Assembly: GCA_029552245.1 (NCBI GenBank)
Contig: JAKPDW010000014.1
Coordinates: 1-33,029 of the forward strand
Reading direction: 5' to 3'
DNA: 33,029 nt
Source: Deltaproteobacteria bacterium
GTDB taxonomy: Bacteria > Desulfobacterota > Desulfomonilia > UBA1062
The translations under genes were made by a program, and so were the position numbers. Below, piece by piece: positions 3,090-33,029 of the stretch; position 1 is the first letter of the stretch, and the number at the start of each line of letters is the position of its first letter. Below the pieces are notes generated by a model, which saw nothing but the letters and a program-made list of their open reading frames with translations, was not told the origin of the DNA and searched no databases.

Positions 3090-3839
3090 ATGGCTCATCA
3101 ACCTCTCGACGAAGCCCTCGAGGAGAAGTCCAAAGAGGCCCAGGTCCGCCAGGTCCGCGAGCTGTCGCACTGGCACACCTGGAACAACAACGGGCGGCAG
3201 CCCGACCACCTCGACCCCCTGCTGGACGCGTACAAGCCGCTCATCCAGCGCAAGGCCGTCGAGTACGGCGGCGGACTCCCGATGGTGCCGAAGACCGCCC
3301 TCGAGGCGGAGATCACGAAGCACGTCATCGGCGCCTTCCAGACCTACAACCCCGACCGCGGGGCGTCGCTGCTCACGCACGTCTACAACCGCATCCCGAA
3401 GGCCAAGCGCTTCGTGGTGCAGCACCAGAACCTTGCGTACATCCCCGAGGGCAAGGCGTACGAGATCGGCCGCATCCAGCGCGGCGCCGCGAACCTCCAG
3501 GAAGACCTGGGGCGGGAGCCCACGGCTGAGGAGCTCTCGGGGCACCTCGGGATGCCCTTGAAGCGCCTGACGAGCATCCAGGCCGCGATGGTGAAGGACA
3601 TCCCCTCGAGCGCCCTCGAGAGCGACCCGTTTCCGAAGCTCGGGCCGCGGCACGATGAAGTCCTCTCGCTTCTCCCCTCGGTCCTGACCGACCGCGAGAA
3701 GAAGGTCTTCGACCTCGTGTACCACCCGACCAGCCCGGTCAGGAGCACGACCGAGCTCGCCCGAGAGCTCAGCCTCAACCCTTCGCAGGTGTCGCGCTTG
3801 AAGGCGGGCATCATCGCGAAGATCAACAAGTACAAGTGA
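3090..3839 (+). CDS. RNA polymerase sigma-70 family factor, phage-type
   Basis: The 249-residue product has the order of a small sigma-70 family factor. Residues about 30-130 correspond to a diverged region 2. Residues about 137-165 (DLGREPTAEELSGHLGMPL) match the classical region 3 signature. Residues about 199-249 (LTDREKKVFDLVY, then ELARELSLNPSQVSRLKAGI) form a region 4 helix-turn-helix. Such factors redirect host RNA polymerase core to phage promoters. GGAGG lies 6 bases before the ATG, and the leader carries a copy of the recurrent CTTCGGGATAAGAAC-like motif. It overlaps the next gene by 4 bases. The sigma call is strong; which promoters it reads is inference. Confidence 0.88.
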   Translation: MAHQPLDEALEEKSKEAQVRQVRELSHWHTWNNNGRQPDHLDPLLDAYKPLIQRKAVEYGGGLPMVPKTALEAEITKHVIGAFQTYNPDRGASLLTHVYNRIPKAKRFVVQHQNLAYIPEGKAYEIGRIQRGAANLQEDLGREPTAEELSGHLGMPLKRLTSIQAAMVKDIPSSALESDPFPKLGPRHDEVLSLLPSVLTDREKKVFDLVYHPTSPVRSTTELARELSLNPSQVSRLKAGIIAKINKYK

Positions 3840-6200: not shown

Positions 6201-7190
6201 ATGGCCTACGCAGCGAAGGTCATCCTCGACAGCATCAGCTCCGCGGGGCACCGCCTCACCTCGTTCGAGATCACGCTCCCCAGGATCGTCCTGGCGGAGT
6301 TCAACACCCATCGGATGTTCTCCAGGAACTCGGCCTCGAGCCGCGCCATCCCGGTCGAGAAGATGATCCGGATGGTCGAGGAGGACCCGTACATCCCCGA
6401 CACCTGGGGCAAGAACCAGAAGGGCATGGTCGCCGAGCAGGACCTCTCGCCCATCGAGCAGCAGACGTGCGAGAACGTCTGGCTGAAGGGGCGTGACGAG
6501 GCCGTCGTGACGGCCAAGCGCCTGCTCGAGATCGGCGTCCACAAGCAACTCACGAACCGGCTGCTCGAGCCGTTCATGTGGCACACGATCCTCGTGACCG
6601 CGACGGAGTGGAGCAACTTCTTCAACCTCCGAGACAACAAGAGCGCCCACCCGGCCATCCAGAAGCCGGCGGCGATGATGAAGGAGCTGTACGGGGCCTC
6701 GCGGCCGACGCTCTTGCAGGAGGGCCAGTGGCACATGCCGTACGTGTCCGGCACCGAGGACGAGCTCGCGTTCTCGGACCAGGACCCGGCGGCGCTCCCG
6801 CGCGAGGACGCCAAGAAGGTCTCGTCGGGGCGTGCCGCTCGTCTCAGCTACCTCACGCACGACAAGCGCCGCGACCTCAACGAGGACGTCCGCTTGCACG
6901 ATGGCCTCCTGACCGGCGGTCACATGAGCCCGTTCGAGCACGTGGCTCGTCCCATGACGCCGGAGGAACTCGACGTCTACCGGATGACGCACGTCGTACT
7001 CGAGGGCGGCTTCCGAGCGGACACGCGAACGGTCGGCTACCAAGCCGGTGACACGGTCATGTTCCGTGGCATCGTGCGCAAGGTCATCTCGGTCCGTACG
7101 ACGCACTTCTGCGGGAACTTCGACGGCTGGATGCAGTACCGGAAGGAGATCCCGTACGAGGAGGACATCCTTGCGTCGCGAGCATCGTGA
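6201..7190 (+). CDS. thyX: Flavin-dependent thymidylate synthase ThyX
   Basis: ThyX makes dTMP from dUMP using methylenetetrahydrofolate, FAD and NADPH. The signature R-H-R-x2-S-x-N-x2-S-x-R appears at residues 36-48 as THRMFSRNSASSR; only the first Arg is replaced, as in many phage enzymes. Other ThyX-like segments are HKQLTNRLLEPFMWHTILVT, then FFNLRDNKSAHPAIQ, and SPFEHVARPM. The protein is 329 residues, longer than the roughly 220-250 of many bacterial enzymes, with extra sequence in the second half and at the C-terminus. It supplies thymidylate for phage DNA synthesis. It overlaps the next gene by 20 bases. Confidence 0.93.
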   Translation: MAYAAKVILDSISSAGHRLTSFEITLPRIVLAEFNTHRMFSRNSASSRAIPVEKMIRMVEEDPYIPDTWGKNQKGMVAEQDLSPIEQQTCENVWLKGRDEAVVTAKRLLEIGVHKQLTNRLLEPFMWHTILVTATEWSNFFNLRDNKSAHPAIQKPAAMMKELYGASRPTLLQEGQWHMPYVSGTEDELAFSDQDPAALPREDAKKVSSGRAARLSYLTHDKRRDLNEDVRLHDGLLTGGHMSPFEHVARPMTPEELDVYRMTHVVLEGGFRADTRTVGYQAGDTVMFRGIVRKVISVRTTHFCGNFDGWMQYRKEIPYEEDILASRAS

Positions 7191-7836
7191 ACTCCTGACG
7201 CCCCAAGGGGCCAAGGGCATGATGTACGCCCTCGGGAACGCGAAGCTCCGCGAGGCGTTGAACATGTCGCATCTCACGTTCGACGACCTGGCGTTCGCGG
7301 AGCTGGAGTTCGTGGTCCCGTGCGCCAGGAAGAAGCACACGATCAAGACCACGAAGAGTGGTCGCATCTACTTCGTGGACCATGGCATCTCGGACCCCAG
7401 GGCCATGCTGGCCGAGGGTCAGCTCCGACTCAGGGACCCGGAGGAGAGGAACACCAAGGTAGGGACGACCCTGCGCGGCTGCGCCTTGGTGGCCTACATG
7501 ATCCTGCACGAGCGGGACGCTCGCGAGTTCCAGTACAACGGGCGTGGACGGACCAAGAAGATGCGCGAGATGCACGACGTCGGGATCCCGGACGTGTTCA
7601 TGACGGACTTCCTCCTGTCGGCGATCCGGAGGAAGGGGATGCGGTCTCTCTCGAGGAAGAACACGGACCCGCTGCGGCACCCCTTCGTGGGCCCGCCTCC
7701 GTCCATCTCGTACGGAGAAGCGAAGATGGGGCCGCGTATCGAGCTACTCTACCGGAACAAGAAGGACGCGCTGCTTCGTACGTTCTCGGGCGCCGTCGAA
7801 CGCGCCCGCTTGCAGAGGGGCATCTCGACGAAGTAG
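7171..7836 (+). CDS. Hypothetical protein downstream of thyX
   Basis: I chose the TTG at 7171 because GAGGAGG ends 7 bases before it and no ATG occurs until residue 17. The 221-residue product contains a hydrophobic/aromatic segment (FAELEFVVPCARKKHTI), a mixed central part and a Lys/Arg-rich C-terminal half (RRKGMRSLSRKNTDPLRHPF). No family is recognised and no catalytic motif stands out, though conserved-looking Asp, His and Cys residues are present. The 20-base overlap with thyX suggests coupling. It is the last gene before the non-coding tmRNA block. Confidence 0.68.
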   Translation: MRREHRELLTPQGAKGMMYALGNAKLREALNMSHLTFDDLAFAELEFVVPCARKKHTIKTTKSGRIYFVDHGISDPRAMLAEGQLRLRDPEERNTKVGTTLRGCALVAYMILHERDAREFQYNGRGRTKKMREMHDVGIPDVFMTDFLLSAIRRKGMRSLSRKNTDPLRHPFVGPPPSISYGEAKMGPRIELLYRNKKDALLRTFSGAVERARLQRGISTK

Positions 7837-8002: not shown

Positions 8003-8341
8003 GGGGCCGATCGGTTTCGACGTTGGAAGGACAGCAAGAACTGCGTGCAAGAGCGCCCACTCTCTCCAAGAGGGCAACCCTGATCGCGAACGACAACGCG
8101 GTCCCGTTCTTCGCCCTCACGGGCTGAACGGCGCTCGAACGAGAGATCGTCCTGGTATCGGTAGAGCGTCAACCACAAGGGCTGGTTCACCGAGAGGTCT
8201 TCTTCAAGTAGGTGAACGAGGAGCAGATGAAGGAGTACGCGGCTGAGCCGCACCCGTGTCCGTGAGGTTCACGGACCACGCACGTGGATGAAGTTCTTGA
8301 AAGAGTTCTGACGGACCGGGGTTCGATTCCCCGCGGCTCCA
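8003..8341 (+). ncRNA. ssrA: Transfer-messenger RNA (tmRNA), one-piece
   Basis: tmRNA rescues stalled ribosomes by acting as tRNA-Ala and then as a short message. The 5' end GGGGCCGAUCGGUUUCGACG has the family's D-loop-like start; GGGGCCG (8003-8009) pairs fully with CGGCUCC (8334-8340, one G-U), followed by discriminator A8341. The third acceptor pair is G-U, as in tRNA-Ala-type identity. The T arm is perfect: stem 8317-8321/8329-8333, loop UUCGAUU. CAAGAACT (8035-8042) pairs with AGUUCUUG (8292-8299) as helix P2. Stem GCCC.CTCT/AGAGGGC before the tag fits the first pseudoknot. CCA is not encoded. Length, 339 bases, is typical. Confidence 0.94.
8086..8127 (+). other. tmRNA tag reading frame, tag ANDNAVPFFALTG
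   Basis: The resume codon is inferred to be GCG at 8086, giving A-N-D-N-A-V-P-F-F-A-L-T-G before the TGA at 8125-8127. The ANDN start is typical of bacterial tags. The end is not: most tags finish in LAA or a similar small nonpolar end that ClpXP recognises, whereas this ends in LTG. The reading frame is seen directly; the choice of resume codon rests on the ANDN match. Confidence 0.82.
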
Positions 8342-8411
8342 CACCCGATGGTGCGGTCCCTGGTTGCTTCAGGGACGACCTAGGGTTCGACAGGGAGGAG
8401 AGACTCCTGGA

Positions 8412-8441
8412 AGACCCGCCGCTCACGTGGCGGGTCTTTCT
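8412..8441 (+). terminator. Rho-independent terminator of the tmRNA
   Basis: AGACCCGCC (8412-8420) pairs perfectly with GGCGGGTCT (8429-8437) around an 8-base loop, followed by TTTCTTTT. It ends the tmRNA unit 70 bases past the discriminator base. The space between holds a 7-base-pair hairpin, GTCCCTG/CAGGGAC at 8356-8376, and an AGGAG/CTCCT hairpin near 8396. From 8445 to 8583 I see no gene. Confidence 0.88.
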
Positions 8442-8583
8442 TTTAGCGCCGTGGTAGAAGAAGACCGCGCACGGGAGCCGCCCGGTCCCCGAGATTGCGA
8501 TGCGCTGCCGGCCGCCGCTCCGGGTCAACGGCACGGCGTGCGAACACGAGCCCACGGGACGCGACCGAAAGGGCAACCGGGTG

Positions 8584-8596
8584 TAGTATTCCGGCA
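8584..8596 (+). promoter_or_regulatory. Possible -10 element directly before a start codon
   Basis: TAGTAT at 8584-8589 lies six bases before the ATG at 8596, and there is no ribosome-binding purine run in between. This is the spacing expected if transcription starts at the ATG itself (a leaderless message). No clear -35 box is visible. The same arrangement recurs at 16891 and 18259. Confidence 0.35.
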
Positions 8597-8820
8597 TGAG
8601 CCTGGACGCCGATCGCAAGAAGGCCCGCGACCAGCGGATGGACGACCTCGTGAAGCTCACGAAGAGCTGGTCGGCGTCCACGCAGGCCGAGTACAACGCC
8701 AGGGTCAAGATGTTGAAGGCTCTTCTCGCGGGTCGTGGGGTCGGGCAGGTGGCCCAGACGACCGTCGGGGCGGCCTCGCAACTTGTCGTGGACGAAGTCA
8801 ACGACTTCCTGACAGGATGA
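8596..8820 (+). CDS. Small helical hypothetical protein
   Basis: The 74-residue product (MSLDADRKKARDQRMDDLVK and onward) is highly charged and helical in the first 45 residues, then has an Ala/Val-rich helix (GQVAQTTVGAASQLVVDEV). It is the first gene after the tmRNA terminator. No Shine-Dalgarno is visible; a TAGTAT box 6 bases upstream suggests a leaderless start. The TGA overlaps the ATG of the next gene. No family is recognised. Confidence 0.6.
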   Translation: MSLDADRKKARDQRMDDLVKLTKSWSASTQAEYNARVKMLKALLAGRGVGQVAQTTVGAASQLVVDEVNDFLTG

Positions 8821-13025: not shown

Positions 13026-16000
13026 ATGACGCAGAACACCGGCTACACGGACACCGAGATCCAGAGCGCGACCTCGTCGTTGATCCGCACGACCGTGCGT
13101 CGACCCATCGACTCGCTCGGGGTGCGGTCCATCGAGGTCACGTTCAACGACGTCCAGGAGGCCGCGAGCGGGCTGTTCCTCCTGAACCCGACCGCGCCGC
13201 TCTACGTCATCCAGCTCGCTGCCTCTCGGCTCCTCGAGGCCGTCAGGACGGAGGCGGGGCTGGTCACGCAGCTCCAGGCCGCATTGGTGGCGACGGGCCG
13301 GAAGGTGTTCCCGATCACGAACCTGAGCCCGCTCTCGAACGCGAAGGCCGCCTTGTTCGAGCTGAGCGGCGCCGTCTCGAACCGCTCGAGCTCGTTCAAG
13401 AACATCGAGTCGACGCCGGCCTTCCAACGCTTCGCCTCCAACGTGGATGCGTTCTTGGGGGAGAATGGGGCGAACATCAAGGACTCCGGGAAGGTCGTCC
13501 AGACCCCGCAGGGTGCCCGGACGCAGATCCGTGTCCTGCTCCCGCAGGTCAAGGCCGCGCACGAGGAGACGAAGCGCCGGGCCCTCGTGCTCCAGAACGC
13601 CCTCGACGACTACAACGCCCTGAACCTCCCGACCCTGGCGGCCTCGGGGGCGATCTCGCGCTCCCGCGAGACGGTGGCCCGCATCGTGTCCTTGCTGTCC
13701 CCACAGGAGCCCCTGGCACGTCTCGAGAGCCTGCGGACCGTGGTGCTCGCGCTCCTGACCACGAAGGCCGTCCTGCGGGAGATCGGTTCCTTCACGGGGC
13801 CGGGTCCGTTCTTCCCCCTGACGGGCTCCGGGCAGGCGTACTCGGACGAGGCGCACCTCGCGGCGCCCGCGACCCTGAAGGCGGACTTGTTCGCGCCCTA
13901 CAACGTGAAGGGCTCGCCGGTCGTGAACGTGTCCCTGAACGGCGCCGCGCCCTTCGCGTTGACGCTCTCGGACGCGCTCTACGCCGAGGCGAACGGGCTC
14001 TTCACGCACGCGTTCCAGCCCGCCACGACCGTGCTGGGCACGAAGCCCGGGCCCTTCAACATCGTCCTCGGCCAGAACGACTTCCTCCAGCTCTACCTCT
14101 ACGACCCCATCGGCCTCGCGTACGTGGACGTGACGGCTATCCTGTCCCCGAACCCCGCGGCCACGGCCGCGCAGATCTGCATTGACATCAACGCGGCCAT
14201 TCTGGCGGCGGGCCTGGCGGCCTCGTACGCGGCCACGCCCGTCGGAGCGCAGGTGCAGATCGCCGCGCTCTTCCTGGGTCCCAACGCTCGCGTGGTCATC
14301 GGTGGCGTCAAGGCCACCAACACGACCCTCGGCTTCACGCAGACGGGCGGGTACAACTTCACGCAGGCGCTGGGTGCTGGGCTCGTCTCGAGGAACAGCG
14401 GGCCCTTCAACACGCTGGTCAACAGCCAGTTCCAGCTCTCGCTCTTCCACCCGCAGGCCAAGCAGTCGGTCTACCTCCAGATCACGCTCACGGTGGGCGC
14501 GGCCGTTCCGACGGCGCAGATCATCGCGGACATCAACGCGGCCATCGCGTCCGCGGGACTCCAGGCGAGCTACCAGGCGTTCCCGATCGGCGCCTCCCAG
14601 CTCACCATCAACTCGCTCTTCGTGGGCCAGTCGGCCATCGTGACGATCGGCGGCGGGAACGCGAACACGGTCTTGGGCTACGACCCCGGGGAGCAGAAGG
14701 TCGGGGTCGACGAGAACCGGCTCCTGACCATCGTGGTGCCGGGCGCTCCCGGCTCTCCGTACTCGGTCACGTTCACGGCCCAGACCTACAGCGCCCCGGA
14801 GGTCGTGGCGTTCTTGCAGCCCGTGCTGGGCCCCGACTTCCTGGTCTCCGTCTCGGGCAGCGAGGACAAGGCCACGGTCGACATCCGGTTCGTCGGGAAC
14901 GTCCCCTCCACGTTCACGGCGAGCATGACGTTCCCGTCCGACCAGCCCAACTCCGCCTGCGACATTCTGGGCTTCCTGAAGGACGTGCCGTACTCGGCTC
15001 GCTCGAACACGGCCCGGCAGGTGGCCCAGAACCTCCGACAGCTCTCCCAGGACCTCACGGCCGCGGCGGAGGTCGTCCCGGCGCCCGCGGGGGCGCTCTT
15101 GAGCGCCAGGAGCGATCCGACGGACGGCTCGAGGCTGGTGGTCTACCGGTTCCGTGGTGCCGTCGTGGCAGCCGTGGCGGGACCCACGGCCATCTCCCTG
15201 ACCCCAACCGGGACCGACACCTTCACGGGCCTCGTGGTCGGTGACGTGGTGTCGATCGTCGACGGCGTGAACACCTTCAGCGCCTGGACCATCACGGCCG
15301 TGACCCCCACGTCCCTGACGGCCTCCGGGGCCTTCCTGCCTGCCGCCGGCGCCTGCACGGTCGAGATCGGGCCGAACCTGGGTGCGCTGCCGGGGTGGGT
15401 GGTCGAGATCCCCTCGGGGGTGAACAACGGCATCTACACCATCAACGTCGTGGGCCCGACCTCGCTCGCGCTCCCGTTCGAGTTCGAGCTCGACGCGGCG
15501 CTGCCATCCCCGAAGGACCCGAACCTCCAGTCGGTCTTCTTCACGGCCAACGTCGGGCAGGAGCGCCTCACGGTCACGTCCAAGGACCGGACCATCAACT
15601 CGTCCGTGAGCATGAGCGGTCCGGGCGCCTCCTTGTTCTTCGCGGCGCCGCCGGGCTTCGCGGCCGGCACGACGCCGTGGCTCAAGCTCCCGATCGTCGT
15701 TCGGGGCCTGGGCACCGACGACCTGCTCGAGGCGTACCTGACCGACTACGCGACCCCCGACCAGGTCTTCACGATCACGAGCGTCGAAGGGCAAGTCATC
15801 GGAGTCACCCCGAACCTCTCGTCCACGCTGGCGATCTCGTTCGACCCCGACGTCCTCCCGCCCTTTGGGCGTCTGCGCAGCACGTCGTACAAGAAGTTCT
15901 TCGCGATGCAGACCGGCCTGGTCACGTGGGCGACGCTGCCCGCGAACAGCACTCGGTACTTCCCCGAGCTCGACCGCCTCATCAACATCGTCCTGGTGGA

Positions 16001-16478
16001 GAGCAACCCGACGTCCGTGCAGATCGGGGACGCGGTGAACCAGCTCCAGCAGCTTGTCGACATCCTTCTTCAGGACGGCTCCACGAATCCTCCCGGCACC
16101 CTTGAGGCCATCCTGAGCGCGTACCAGGTCCCCAGGGTGGACTCGATCGACGAGCTCGTCCGGACGTACCGGGAGAAGGGCAGCGCCCGCGCGGTCGACA
16201 TCTTGCTCGAGGCGCAGTTCAGCACGTTCTTCGGGCTCGACGTCTACGGGGTCTCGTACTCGGGGGCCATGCTCGGGAAGCTCCGGGAGATTGCCCAGCA
16301 GGACATGCCGGTCCGGAAGGTCAACCGGAAGGTCTCGACGACCTCGCAGCTCCAGAGCACGTCCGAGTCGCCGAACTTCGAGTACGACACGGCCGACGCC
16401 GACACGTCTCCGAAGCCGGATGTTCCGACCTCCTTCGAGCAGGTCCCGCACGGCCCTGACCCGACTGACGATTCCTGA
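13026..16478 (+). CDS. Large tail or baseplate-type structural protein with triplicated module
   Basis: At 1150 residues this is the largest gene in the window. Residues 1-270 are mostly helical (RTTVRRPIDSLGVRSIEVTF, then VRTEAGLVTQLQAALVATGR). Residues 351-437, 466-552 and 564-650 are three copies of an 87-residue beta module ending LGF, LGY and LGF. Further beta-rich segments follow to about residue 970, then a helical C-terminal domain (LDRLINIVLVESNPTSVQIG, RVDSIDELVRTYREKGSARA) and a disordered acidic tail. The modules recall tail and flagellin-hook-type repeats (AAQI..DINAAI...G). GGAG lies 7 bases before the ATG. Structural role is inferred. Confidence 0.8.
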   Translation: MTQNTGYTDTEIQSATSSLIRTTVRRPIDSLGVRSIEVTFNDVQEAASGLFLLNPTAPLYVIQLAASRLLEAVRTEAGLVTQLQAALVATGRKVFPITNLSPLSNAKAALFELSGAVSNRSSSFKNIESTPAFQRFASNVDAFLGENGANIKDSGKVVQTPQGARTQIRVLLPQVKAAHEETKRRALVLQNALDDYNALNLPTLAASGAISRSRETVARIVSLLSPQEPLARLESLRTVVLALLTTKAVLREIGSFTGPGPFFPLTGSGQAYSDEAHLAAPATLKADLFAPYNVKGSPVVNVSLNGAAPFALTLSDALYAEANGLFTHAFQPATTVLGTKPGPFNIVLGQNDFLQLYLYDPIGLAYVDVTAILSPNPAATAAQICIDINAAILAAGLAASYAATPVGAQVQIAALFLGPNARVVIGGVKATNTTLGFTQTGGYNFTQALGAGLVSRNSGPFNTLVNSQFQLSLFHPQAKQSVYLQITLTVGAAVPTAQIIADINAAIASAGLQASYQAFPIGASQLTINSLFVGQSAIVTIGGGNANTVLGYDPGEQKVGVDENRLLTIVVPGAPGSPYSVTFTAQTYSAPEVVAFLQPVLGPDFLVSVSGSEDKATVDIRFVGNVPSTFTASMTFPSDQPNSACDILGFLKDVPYSARSNTARQVAQNLRQLSQDLTAAAEVVPAPAGALLSARSDPTDGSRLVVYRFRGAVVAAVAGPTAISLTPTGTDTFTGLVVGDVVSIVDGVNTFSAWTITAVTPTSLTASGAFLPAAGACTVEIGPNLGALPGWVVEIPSGVNNGIYTINVVGPTSLALPFEFELDAALPSPKDPNLQSVFFTANVGQERLTVTSKDRTINSSVSMSGPGASLFFAAPPGFAAGTTPWLKLPIVVRGLGTDDLLEAYLTDYATPDQVFTITSVEGQVIGVTPNLSSTLAISFDPDVLPPFGRLRSTSYKKFFAMQTGLVTWATLPANSTRYFPELDRLINIVLVESNPTSVQIGDAVNQLQQLVDILLQDGSTNPPGTLEAILSAYQVPRVDSIDELVRTYREKGSARAVDILLEAQFSTFFGLDVYGVSYSGAMLGKLREIAQQDMPVRKVNRKVSTTSQLQSTSESPNFEYDTADADTSPKPDVPTSFEQVPHGPDPTDDS
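14076..14975 (+). repeat. Three 87-residue tandem modules within the large structural protein
   Basis: Copies encoded at 14076-14336, 14421-14681 and 14715-14975. The first two align easily: NDFLQLYLYDP / NSQFQLSLFHP, QICIDINAAILAAGLAASY / QIIADINAAIASAGLQASY, TPVGAQVQIAALFLG / FPIGASQLTINSLFVG, and IGGVKATNTTLGF / IGGGNANTVLGY. The third is much diverged but keeps the length and the closing ILGF. Confidence 0.8.
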
Positions 16479-18478: not shown

Positions 18479-18837
18479 TGGCGCTCATCATCGATCAGAC
18501 CTGGGTGGCCGACTGGATGTCCGGCATCATGACGCCCGAGGAGTTCGGGTACATGAAGACGTGGCTGGTCGGCACGCCTTCCGCTTCAGCGAAGCTGCTG
18601 ACCCGCTTCCCGCCCATGGCCCTCGTGCGAGGCAAGACGCCTCTCGAGGTCCCATACCCGTTCTCGGTGGGCATCGTGAGCGGGTACCGCGGCCAGAATG
18701 AGGTGGGCGTTCAGCAGACCCCGAAGGACGAGATGGTGTACGTGCCCGCAGACCTCCTGGAGGTCGTGGGCTTCTGGAAGTCGTTCAACGTCGTCAACGT
18801 GGCCGAGATCCTCCGCACGAGGTCCCTCGGCCGATAG
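18478..18837 (+). CDS. Hypothetical protein
   Basis: The start overlaps the regulator's stop by one base. The 119-residue product has an aromatic N-terminus (MALIIDQTWVADWMSGIMTP), a mixed core with PLEVPYPFSVGIVSGYRGQN and a C-terminal helix (VGFWKSFNVVNVAEILRTRS). Short loops and alternating strands suggest a compact globular fold. No family is recognised. The tight coupling to the DNA-binding protein could mean a shared function; that remains inference. Confidence 0.65.
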   Translation: MALIIDQTWVADWMSGIMTPEEFGYMKTWLVGTPSASAKLLTRFPPMALVRGKTPLEVPYPFSVGIVSGYRGQNEVGVQQTPKDEMVYVPADLLEVVGFWKSFNVVNVAEILRTRSLGR

Positions 18838-18847
18838 CCGAGGACCC

Positions 18848-20908
18848 ATGCACGAAGAAGACGAAGATCTCGAAGAAGAAGTACCGGACGCGCTCGAAGA
18901 AGAACGAAAGACGCGTCGAGCCGCAACCCTGCCAGACCCGGTCACGTACGTCGACGAGGCGTTTCGGACCGGGGGCTGGCTCTCGCGGTCGTTTACGGGC
19001 TACCAGCCGCGCAGCGGACAGGTGCAGCTCGCGAACCGGATCGCCAAGGCCCTCTTCGATGGGGTGCACCTGGTGGCCGAGGGGCCGACGGGCACCGGCA
19101 AGAGCGTGGCCTACGCGATCCCGGCCATCTACCACGCAGCCGCCACCAAGCGGCCGGTGGTCATCGTGACGGCCAACATCGCCCTTCAGGAGCAGCTCAT
19201 CACCAAGGACCTGCCGATGCTCCAGAAGGTCCTGCCCTGGGAGTTCTCGTTCTCGCTCATCAAGGGGCGCGGGAACTACCTCTGCCAGAACGCCGCCTCG
19301 CAAGTGCAGGGCGACCTCACGATGGGCAAGCTCCGCTCTCTCAAGTTCGAGGAGCAGGAGGAAGCTCGGCAGATCCTGGAGTGGGCCAAGCGCACGACCG
19401 AGGGCGACGTCTCCGAGCTCAAGACCGAGCCCAGCCCTCGGGTGTGGTCCAGGTTCTCGGTCTCGGGCGAGGACTGCCTCGGGTCGAAGTGCCGGTACCG
19501 GAACGACTGCTTCTCCCAGAAGGCCCGGACGACCATTCGCACGGTCGACGTGATCGTGACGAACTACCACTTCTTGTTCGCGAGCCTGGCGGCCCGGAAG
19601 CTTCTGCCGCCCTACCAGACCCTGATCTTCGATGAGGCGCACAAGATGGTCGACATCGCCCGCGACTTCTTCGGAGCGCGGGTGAGTGAGTTCTTGGTCC
19701 GGTACGCGCTCTCGAGCCTTCCCCAGGAGTACGTGTCGGCGGGCCCTGGGCGTCGGCCGCTACGCGCTCGGCTCGAGCACGCGTCGTCCGAGTTCTTCCA
19801 GCAGCTCTACGACTGGGGGCGCTCGCCGGCGTACAACATCCGGCTCCGTGCCACTCCGCCCGTGGCCTTCGAGCCGTTGCTCGAGTGTCTCCTGGAGGCC
19901 GCGAGCTACACCGCGAAGGCCATGAAGAACGTGGTCGACCAGCACGAGCGGGCCGTCCTGGACCTGGCCAGGAAGAGGTTCGAGCGTATCCACTCGACGC
20001 TCGTGAAGAGCCTGTTCCTGCCGGTCGAGGACTTGCTCGAACCGCACCAGACCTCGGACAACGAAGACGAGTACGTCCACTACCTGGACTTCAACCACGA
20101 GCGAGGGGCCGTGGCGATCTGCTCCAAGAAGTTCAGGGTCGCGGAGGACCTTGCTCAGGCGCTGTTCGACCAGAAGACGGTCGTGGCGGTCTCGGCCACC
20201 CTGAGCGTGAACGGGTCGTTCGACCACCTCATCGAGGAGTCGGGCCTGCCGCCGGAGCGGACCCGCACGTTCGAGGCCGAGACGCCGTTCTCCTGGAAGG
20301 ACCAGGTCACGCTCGTGATCCCTGGCCGCTTCCCGGAGCCCAACACCGAGTTCTTCCCCAGGGCGCTCGCGAGCGGGGTCATCGAGGTGGTCAAGATGGC
20401 CCGGGGGCGGACCCTCGGGCTCTTCACCTCCTGGAAGTCCCTGAAGCTCGTACGGGAGGCCCTGCTGGCCGAGAACCTCCCGTACCGCATCCTGTCCCAG
20501 GGGGACGCGCCCAAGACCCGTCTGGTCGAGGAGTTCATGCGGGACCGGTCCTCGGTCCTCCTGGGTGTCGAGTCCTTGTGGCAGGGCATCGACGTGCCCG
20601 GCGAGAGCCTGTCGTGCGTGGTCATCGACAAGCTCCCGTTCCCCCACCTCCACGACCCCATCCTGTCGGCCCTGGACGACGCCGGCGAGCGGGGCTTCCA
20701 GACCTACTCGATCCCGAGGGCCATCATCGCCCTCAAGCAGGGCTTCGGGCGCCTCATCCGCACCACCACCGACAAGGGCGTGGTGGTCATCTTCGACAAC
20801 CGCCTCAACAGCAAGGGGTACGGAAAGCTCTTCCTGCGATCCCTCCCCGACATCCCCCTCAGTCACACCCTCGACACCGTAGAAGAAGTTCTAGGAGAAC
20901 CCTCATGA
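18848..20908 (+). CDS. DinG/XPD-type superfamily 2 DNA helicase with iron-sulphur cysteines
   Basis: The 686-residue product has an acidic N-terminal stretch, then Walker A GPTGTGKS (79-86), the DEAH box (262-265) and motif VI QGFGRLIR (631-638). Between the first two motifs are Cys146, Cys210, Cys215 and Cys221, the four ligands of the iron-sulphur cluster in this family. VAVSATLSVNG and LLGVESLWQGIDVPGESLSC match motifs III and V. DinG and XPD unwind DNA 5'-to-3' and can remove R-loops. GAGGACCC precedes the ATG; a coupling to the MazG-like gene (ATGA) follows. Close relatives exist in bacteria; the exact DinG or XPD subgroup is uncertain. Confidence 0.92.
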   Translation: MHEEDEDLEEEVPDALEEERKTRRAATLPDPVTYVDEAFRTGGWLSRSFTGYQPRSGQVQLANRIAKALFDGVHLVAEGPTGTGKSVAYAIPAIYHAAATKRPVVIVTANIALQEQLITKDLPMLQKVLPWEFSFSLIKGRGNYLCQNAASQVQGDLTMGKLRSLKFEEQEEARQILEWAKRTTEGDVSELKTEPSPRVWSRFSVSGEDCLGSKCRYRNDCFSQKARTTIRTVDVIVTNYHFLFASLAARKLLPPYQTLIFDEAHKMVDIARDFFGARVSEFLVRYALSSLPQEYVSAGPGRRPLRARLEHASSEFFQQLYDWGRSPAYNIRLRATPPVAFEPLLECLLEAASYTAKAMKNVVDQHERAVLDLARKRFERIHSTLVKSLFLPVEDLLEPHQTSDNEDEYVHYLDFNHERGAVAICSKKFRVAEDLAQALFDQKTVVAVSATLSVNGSFDHLIEESGLPPERTRTFEAETPFSWKDQVTLVIPGRFPEPNTEFFPRALASGVIEVVKMARGRTLGLFTSWKSLKLVREALLAENLPYRILSQGDAPKTRLVEEFMRDRSSVLLGVESLWQGIDVPGESLSCVVIDKLPFPHLHDPILSALDDAGERGFQTYSIPRAIIALKQGFGRLIRTTTDKGVVVIFDNRLNSKGYGKLFLRSLPDIPLSHTLDTVEEVLGEPS

Positions 20909-32789: not shown

Positions 32790-33029
32790 ATGCACATCCT
32801 CGGTGCTCGCGCCCGTGAGCTGTACGAGCGAGCAGTCGGGAAGCGCCACGCGGCCGTGTACGTGCGCGTGGTCGCGCGGGACACGCTTCAGCTCGACTGC
32901 CCCGAGAACCAGAAGTTCCCGATCGTCGTCCTCAAGGCCGACGCGCTCATCGTTCCCTTGCCGGAGAAGATCCGTGTCCTCGACCCGGACGGCAAGATCC
33001 TCAAGCCCTCTCGGCGGTTCTACATCACG
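32790..33029 (+). CDS. Hypothetical protein, 3' end cut by window edge
   Basis: The ATG is two bases after the previous stop, and the frame is open to the last base (80 codons seen). The visible part starts MHILGARARELYERAVGKRH, then VYVRVVARDTLQLDCPENQK, KFPIVVLKADALIVPLPEKI and RVLDPDGKILKPSRRFYIT: alternating strands of a small beta-rich domain. No family is recognised, and the true length is unknown. Confidence 0.6.
   Translation, partial: MHILGARARELYERAVGKRHAAVYVRVVARDTLQLDCPENQKFPIVVLKADALIVPLPEKIRVLDPDGKILKPSRRFYIT

Follow-up and report, generated by a model that had tools for sequence, protein, structure and literature searches.

Phages could need tmRNA to release ribosomes or to have tagged proteins destroyed. 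A natural phage tmRNA whose tag is predicted to be a poor degron would separate the two. Such a candidate lies in the window, which here means the whole analysed stretch of DNA, a 33,029-bp contig (C68) from a genome bin of 3.27 Mb in 95 contigs. Phage-encoded tmRNAs as such are already established: one count found them in 402 of 18,146 phage genomes (PMC9004378), and earlier lists held phage G and several mycobacteriophages (PMC4131195). The tag of the window tmRNA ends in LTG, and its TG end recurs in none of the other viral tags surveyed. Is this RNA a working tmRNA, and what would its tag do?

The tmRNA gene and its phage setting

RF00023, the Rfam tmRNA model, matched 8003-8344 on the forward strand over the full model (1-374) with 106.9 bits (E 4.7e-41), well above its gathering score of 47 bits. 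It is the sole Rfam match within the 33,029-nt window. As regards pseudoknots PK1-PK4, the alignment is continuous along the model, with some helix positions unpaired. The parts of the gene and its 3' flank are as follows.

8003..8341, + strand: tmRNA gene, the mature RNA ending at discriminator A8341, CCA not encoded (RF00023, 106.9 bits, and sequence)
8003..8009, + strand: acceptor stem 5' arm, GGGGCCG, pairing with 8334-8340
8334..8340, + strand: acceptor stem 3' arm, CGGCTCC, pairing with 8003-8009 (sequence and model match)
8409..8443, + strand: intrinsic-terminator-like hairpin of 14 bp with a U-rich tail, 3' of the tmRNA (-27 kcal/mol, z -6.5)

The initial annotation described a folded one-piece tmRNA with an intact T arm, and both points are borne out. 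It also had the ends pairing perfectly; all positions of the acceptor arms are indeed paired, but one pair, G8005-U8338, is a G-U wobble. This pair occupies the G3-U70 position, which alanyl-tRNA synthetase uses, and is the alanine identity pair of alanine tRNAs and tmRNAs. All 13 of the ANDN phage tmRNAs that were compared have G3-U70, and other positions of the acceptor stem show compensatory changes. A8341 is the discriminator; the bases after it (8342-8344) are CAC, so that CCA is not encoded. ARAGORN did not call a tmRNA at 8003-8341, a silence that is not counted against the gene because the program was also silent on several genuine relatives. A distant blastn search matched short pieces only, mostly of the T-arm end. 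A sigma-70-like promoter was sought for the tmRNA and none was found; the phage has its own sigma factor. With the model match, the tRNA-like end and the tag-frame features all present, 8003-8341 belongs to the one-piece tmRNA family.

The surrounding open reading frames match a phage sigma factor, a DNA methyltransferase, ThyX, a helicase and HNH endonucleases. Those used as landmarks are listed here.

3090..3839, + strand: phage sigma factor (context)
6201..7190, + strand: thymidylate synthase of ThyX type (context; basis of the tree)
7048..7836, + strand: upstream ORF, with a homologue in a 185-kb relative (29%)
8596..8820, + strand: downstream ORF, with homologues in related phages (35-47%)
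18698..20908, + strand: phage DNA helicase (context)

Gene order in the window is kept in the viral contigs L270/L271, L383 and L273. Positions 1-141 are identical to the end of contig C55, and 32889-33029 to the start of C46, both of the same bin; such 141-base identities are what k-mer overlaps would give, which suggests that these contigs neighbour the window and that the phage genome continues there. A structural-type protein on C55 has full-length relatives (44-49% identity) in viral contigs of 120-187 kb. The phage origin claimed at first reading is thus upheld by phage genes and by synteny with 120-187-kb viral contigs, on which grounds the tmRNA is taken as phage-borne; the contig is assigned to a group of large phages of the ~185-kb class. 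Megablast of 24 kb of the window against sequenced phages gave no match. At 13026-16478 (+), a 1150-aa ORF overlies an opposite-strand ORF of 1167 aa; the 1150-aa protein matches no family, and its relative, at 50%, is confined to L270.

Comparison with the host ssrA revealed a separate, ordinary copy in the same bin, on contig C53 (200 bits, tag ADDYNYALAA), the phage contig being assigned to this host by binning alone. At the cut-off used, a tmRNA match was found in 18 of 24 genomes of the bacterial family; all of these carry a single ordinary ssrA (tag ALAA or AMAA), and a second copy occurs in the window's genome only. Integration of the phage at ssrA was considered and rejected, the 3' end of the window tmRNA being different from that of the host gene. 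The bin contains one smpB, and none of 18 related phage records gave an smpB match; host SmpB is therefore the likely partner of the phage RNA.

The tag reading frame and its end

8086..8127, + strand: tag frame, from resume codon GCG (8086-8088) through peptide ANDNAVPFFALTG to stop TGA (8125-8127) (sequence, RF00023, relative L355)

The coding part of the tag (8086-8124) ends in Leu-Thr-Gly, and RF00023 places GCG AAC GAC AAC on the consensus resume region. The closest phage relative by structural protein (L355, IMGVR_UViG_3300032893_000001) is identical to the window in 22 bases around the resume codon, ACCCTGATC followed by GCGAACGACAACG, and its frame 0 gives ANDNVIAQAAQAA, which ends in AA. 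An AA-ending tag after the same 22 bases supports frame 0 at 8086. A resume codon shifted in frame through a GA/AG change was considered and rejected: the +1 frame of L355 reads RTTT and its AA-ending tag is lost. The -1 and +1 frames of the window tag, read by hand, have no AA-type end. The covariance model could have moved the resume codon to a frame with a normal end; it left the codon in place, and the early description of a tag without the usual degron end stands. The C-terminal Ala-Ala of LAA-type tags, read by ClpX, is absent. While the RNA is a tmRNA, a proteolysis-inducing tag is only a putative property of it.

An error of sequencing or assembly in the last two tag codons would also account for this end. 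The locus is known from one metagenome-style consensus, and the contig ends resemble k-mer joins. Error is nonetheless very improbable: two separate substitutions would be required, one of them completing a stem, no single indel tried by eye gives back AA, and the nearest contig end is 8 kb from the site.

Of 143 distinct tags in a survey of viral loci, 119 have an AA end, and the TG end occurs only in the window; this survey is pattern-based, favours ARAGORN-type tags, and also counts a few doubtful calls and some copies that are prophage or host-like. ThyX led to 50 viral records, 14 of them with a tmRNA above the cut-off; further ones came from the structural-protein set. Tags of the relatives are ANDNSYASAAIAA, ANDNSIALPVQKAA, ANDNVIAQAAQAA, ANDNGFADDVRLAA (two records), ANDNGALPLRLAA and ANDNSTALPIAA; others include ANDNALAAAA, ANDNATPALAVDKAA, ANDNGNTDHTAKVAA and ANDNASAVLALAS. 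An ANDN start is common among them and an AA end is the rule.

Several further observations were made on viral tmRNA genes. L030 (IMGVR_UViG_3300035698_022190) has a second Gly-ending viral tag, ...SNFAYAG. In L366 (G030:C1:30256-30633) the tag ANDNVEAAPLALAA runs on without an in-frame stop, a stop lying one base out of frame. Two-piece (permuted) tmRNAs, as in L163, L177, L193, L199 and similar loci, share a recurring tag type, AN(K/N)IVAFSR...LV. Some viral contigs hold tmRNA-like genes of 76-117 nt that are scarcely more than a TLD (L009 46-127, L015 2411-2492, L018 12682-12789, L362 1501-1617, and others in L222, L227 and L251) and resemble the RNA reported for phage DS6A.

Predicted pairing at the tag end and at the resume codon

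8104..8131, + strand: tag-end hairpin, P5-like, CCGUUC-(UUC)-GCCC-[UCAC]-GGGC-(U)-GAACGG, with the stop codon at the 3' base (predicted fold)
8082..8103, + strand: predicted stem-loop in which the resume codon is buried, GAUCGCG-[AACGACAA]-CGCGGUC, 7 bp (-9.9 kcal/mol for a 29-nt stretch)

In the predicted fold of the window, the last codon of the tag (codon 13, GGC 8122-8124) pairs with codon 10 (GCC 8113-8115). The tag-end folds read GCCC-UCAC-GGGC in the window, GCUC-UCGC-GAGC in L363 and CGCC-UCGC-GGCG in L358, with the last codon and the stop in the 3' arm, and in all three codons 10 and 13 are reverse complements of each other (GCC/GGC, GCU/AGC and CGC/GCG, respectively). Under this pairing, Ala at codon 10 is matched by Gly or Ser at the tag end, as is seen in the window (Gly) and in L363 (Ser, ...ALAS); Arg at codon 10 accompanies an Ala end in L358 (RLAA). 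As a cause of the odd end this covariation is suggestive, being drawn from three sequences and spotted after the fact. The Thr at tag position 12 is one transition (GCG to ACG) away from the Ala of L363 and L358. The Thy1 tree places L273, which is the genome of L363, beside the window with a support of 86/88, under the strong threshold. L030 was tried as a fourth case of codon pairing and was not counted, since in its predicted fold the last codon pairs at another site. The Ala-Ala end may have been given up in favour of RNA pairing, and the coupling of codons 10 and 13 suggests that RNA structure can trade off against the degron where one gene serves as RNA and as message.

The initial annotation proposed that tagged products are spared or rerouted, or that the RNA competes with the host tmRNA; both are conjectural effects. 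The end could have been selected as a non-degrading tag, if the phage gains from truncated tagged proteins that escape degradation or reach another protease or compartment; the gene would then be a natural counterpart of laboratory degradation-deficient tmRNAs. Both final alanine codons have changed while FFAL is retained, an ALAA-coding end (GCC CTC GCG GCC, in viral locus L207) is two substitutions away, and the tag of the Thy1 sister, with its end ALAS, is non-AA too. The two sisters differ, however, in their last residue (Ser versus Gly), as pairing predicts and a shared new signal does not. Other relatives keep AA, and no new adaptor or protease has come to light. Selection for a new fate is thus considered unlikely, and the tag-end hairpin is the plainer candidate cause of LTG.

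The resume codon lies in a predicted stem of 7-8 bp with the loop AACGACAA, at -9.9 kcal/mol in the window and -9.4 in L355. For nine phage representatives, swapped arms give poorer pairing than the natural combination (permutation 0.0002; 0.002 without the window and L355), and the host-family ssrA genes have almost no structure around the resume codon. The register of the stem-loop varies among phages, so it is not one conserved helix. A tendency of the resume codon toward a local stem-loop was seen in the ANDN-type phage tmRNAs (the window, L355, L353, L365 and others). An A at -4 from the resume codon, the A86 position of Escherichia coli, is typical of tmRNAs, nearly universal rather than strictly defining. 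The window has G at this position and A at -3 (GAUC before GCG), and L355 is alike. An E. coli A86G tmRNA is weakly active, and for the inactive A86C mutant a helix at the resume site has been proposed as explanation (PMC2481249). Because A86G is weakly active in E. coli, G at -4 lowers the activity expected of the phage RNA and not its family membership. The predicted hairpin and the G at the A86 position together leave less confidence in high activity, and the activity of the window tmRNA could be low.

The same features could fit a competitor that titrates SmpB or stalled ribosomes away from the host tmRNA without efficient tagging. The strong predicted hairpin over the resume codon and the G in place of A86 agree with such a decoy, TLD-only tmRNA-like genes occur in other viral contigs, and strong inhibition of tmRNA is described for an RNA of the phage DS6A kind (PMC4131195). 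The window RNA, however, has an open tag frame closed by a stop, a tag-end hairpin and a full-length structure, and related phages that have the resume hairpin keep AA-ending tags (L355), which implies tag translation. As a general function of the phage group, a decoy disagrees with the open, mostly AA-ending tag frames of the related tmRNAs. We regard this role as improbable, somewhat more so than a selected tag.

Decay of a once-working phage tmRNA toward loss is less credible again. The score of 107 bits against 200 for the host ssrA, the unusual resume region and the apparent run-on tag frame of L366 point in this direction. The relatives' tmRNAs, however, score 71-137 bits, the same range as the 106.9 bits of the window, and the window gene has kept its acceptor, T arm, tag hairpin and stop whole, with compensatory changes. 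Drift toward loss therefore appears quite improbable.

Proposed action and comparison with known systems

A working accessory tmRNA that uses host SmpB and AlaRS is the reading that we favour, with reserve, from the sequence features above: rescue would be retained, the ClpXP degron weakened, and the tag end shaped by relaxed selection and hairpin pairing. During infection, host enzymes would process the phage RNA and add CCA; it would be charged with alanine and bound by host SmpB. The charged RNA would enter stalled ribosomes, add Ala-ANDNAVPFFALTG and allow release at UGA, and the ribosomes would thereby be recycled. ClpX contacts the last Ala-Ala of the tag, and substitution of the last or penultimate Ala raises the KM of ClpXP (PMC7652416); tags varied to carry other ends are less readily degraded (PMC8512704). 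Since the contacted Ala-Ala is Thr-Gly here, the tagged product should be a poor ClpXP substrate, its turnover reduced and not redirected to a designed new fate. The LTG end would reflect relaxed selection on the degron together with conserved pairing in the tag-end hairpin.

To survive, cells depend more on clearing stalled ribosomes than on breaking down the product (PMC8012679), and a phage plaque assay did not critically require tag function (PMC2481249). In infected cells, rescue and degradation may be partly uncoupled. A wider proposal, that trans-translation with a degradation-deficient tag is the natural mode of a phage lineage, rescue being kept while tagged proteins persist and codon pairing overrides Ala-Ala, is put forward tentatively, as a possibility that we hold to be less probable than the accessory role itself.

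Compared with the standard one-piece ssrA (RF00023), the window gene is alike in its TLD with G3-U70, its stop-closed tag frame and its whole-model match. It differs in being phage-borne next to a separate host ssrA, in its LTG end, in a tag-end hairpin whose 3' arm includes the last codons and the stop, and in a resume codon predicted to lie inside a stem. Bacillus phage G, Streptomyces phage Faust and phage Melnitz likewise carry a full tmRNA gene; the tag of Faust is annotated as ANSKNASAYALAA and that of phage G, as read here, is AKLNITNNELQVA, and the window tag differs from both in its TG end. The nearest Thy1 relative, the L273/L363 phage (IMGVR_UViG_3300037851_000865; tag ANDNASAVLALAS), shares the 13-aa tag with AL at positions 10-11, the hairpin register and a non-AA end; it ends in AS, however, and its U-A pair is C-G in the window. 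The DS6A-type TLD-only gene of a mycobacteriophage is also a phage tmRNA-like gene, without a tag frame, whereas the window gene has a full mRNA-like domain. Degradation-deficient laboratory tmRNAs (tag-changed SsrA) rescue without efficient degradation, and the window RNA would act alike. Those variants were engineered, whereas the version in the window is natural, its effect predicted from sequence.
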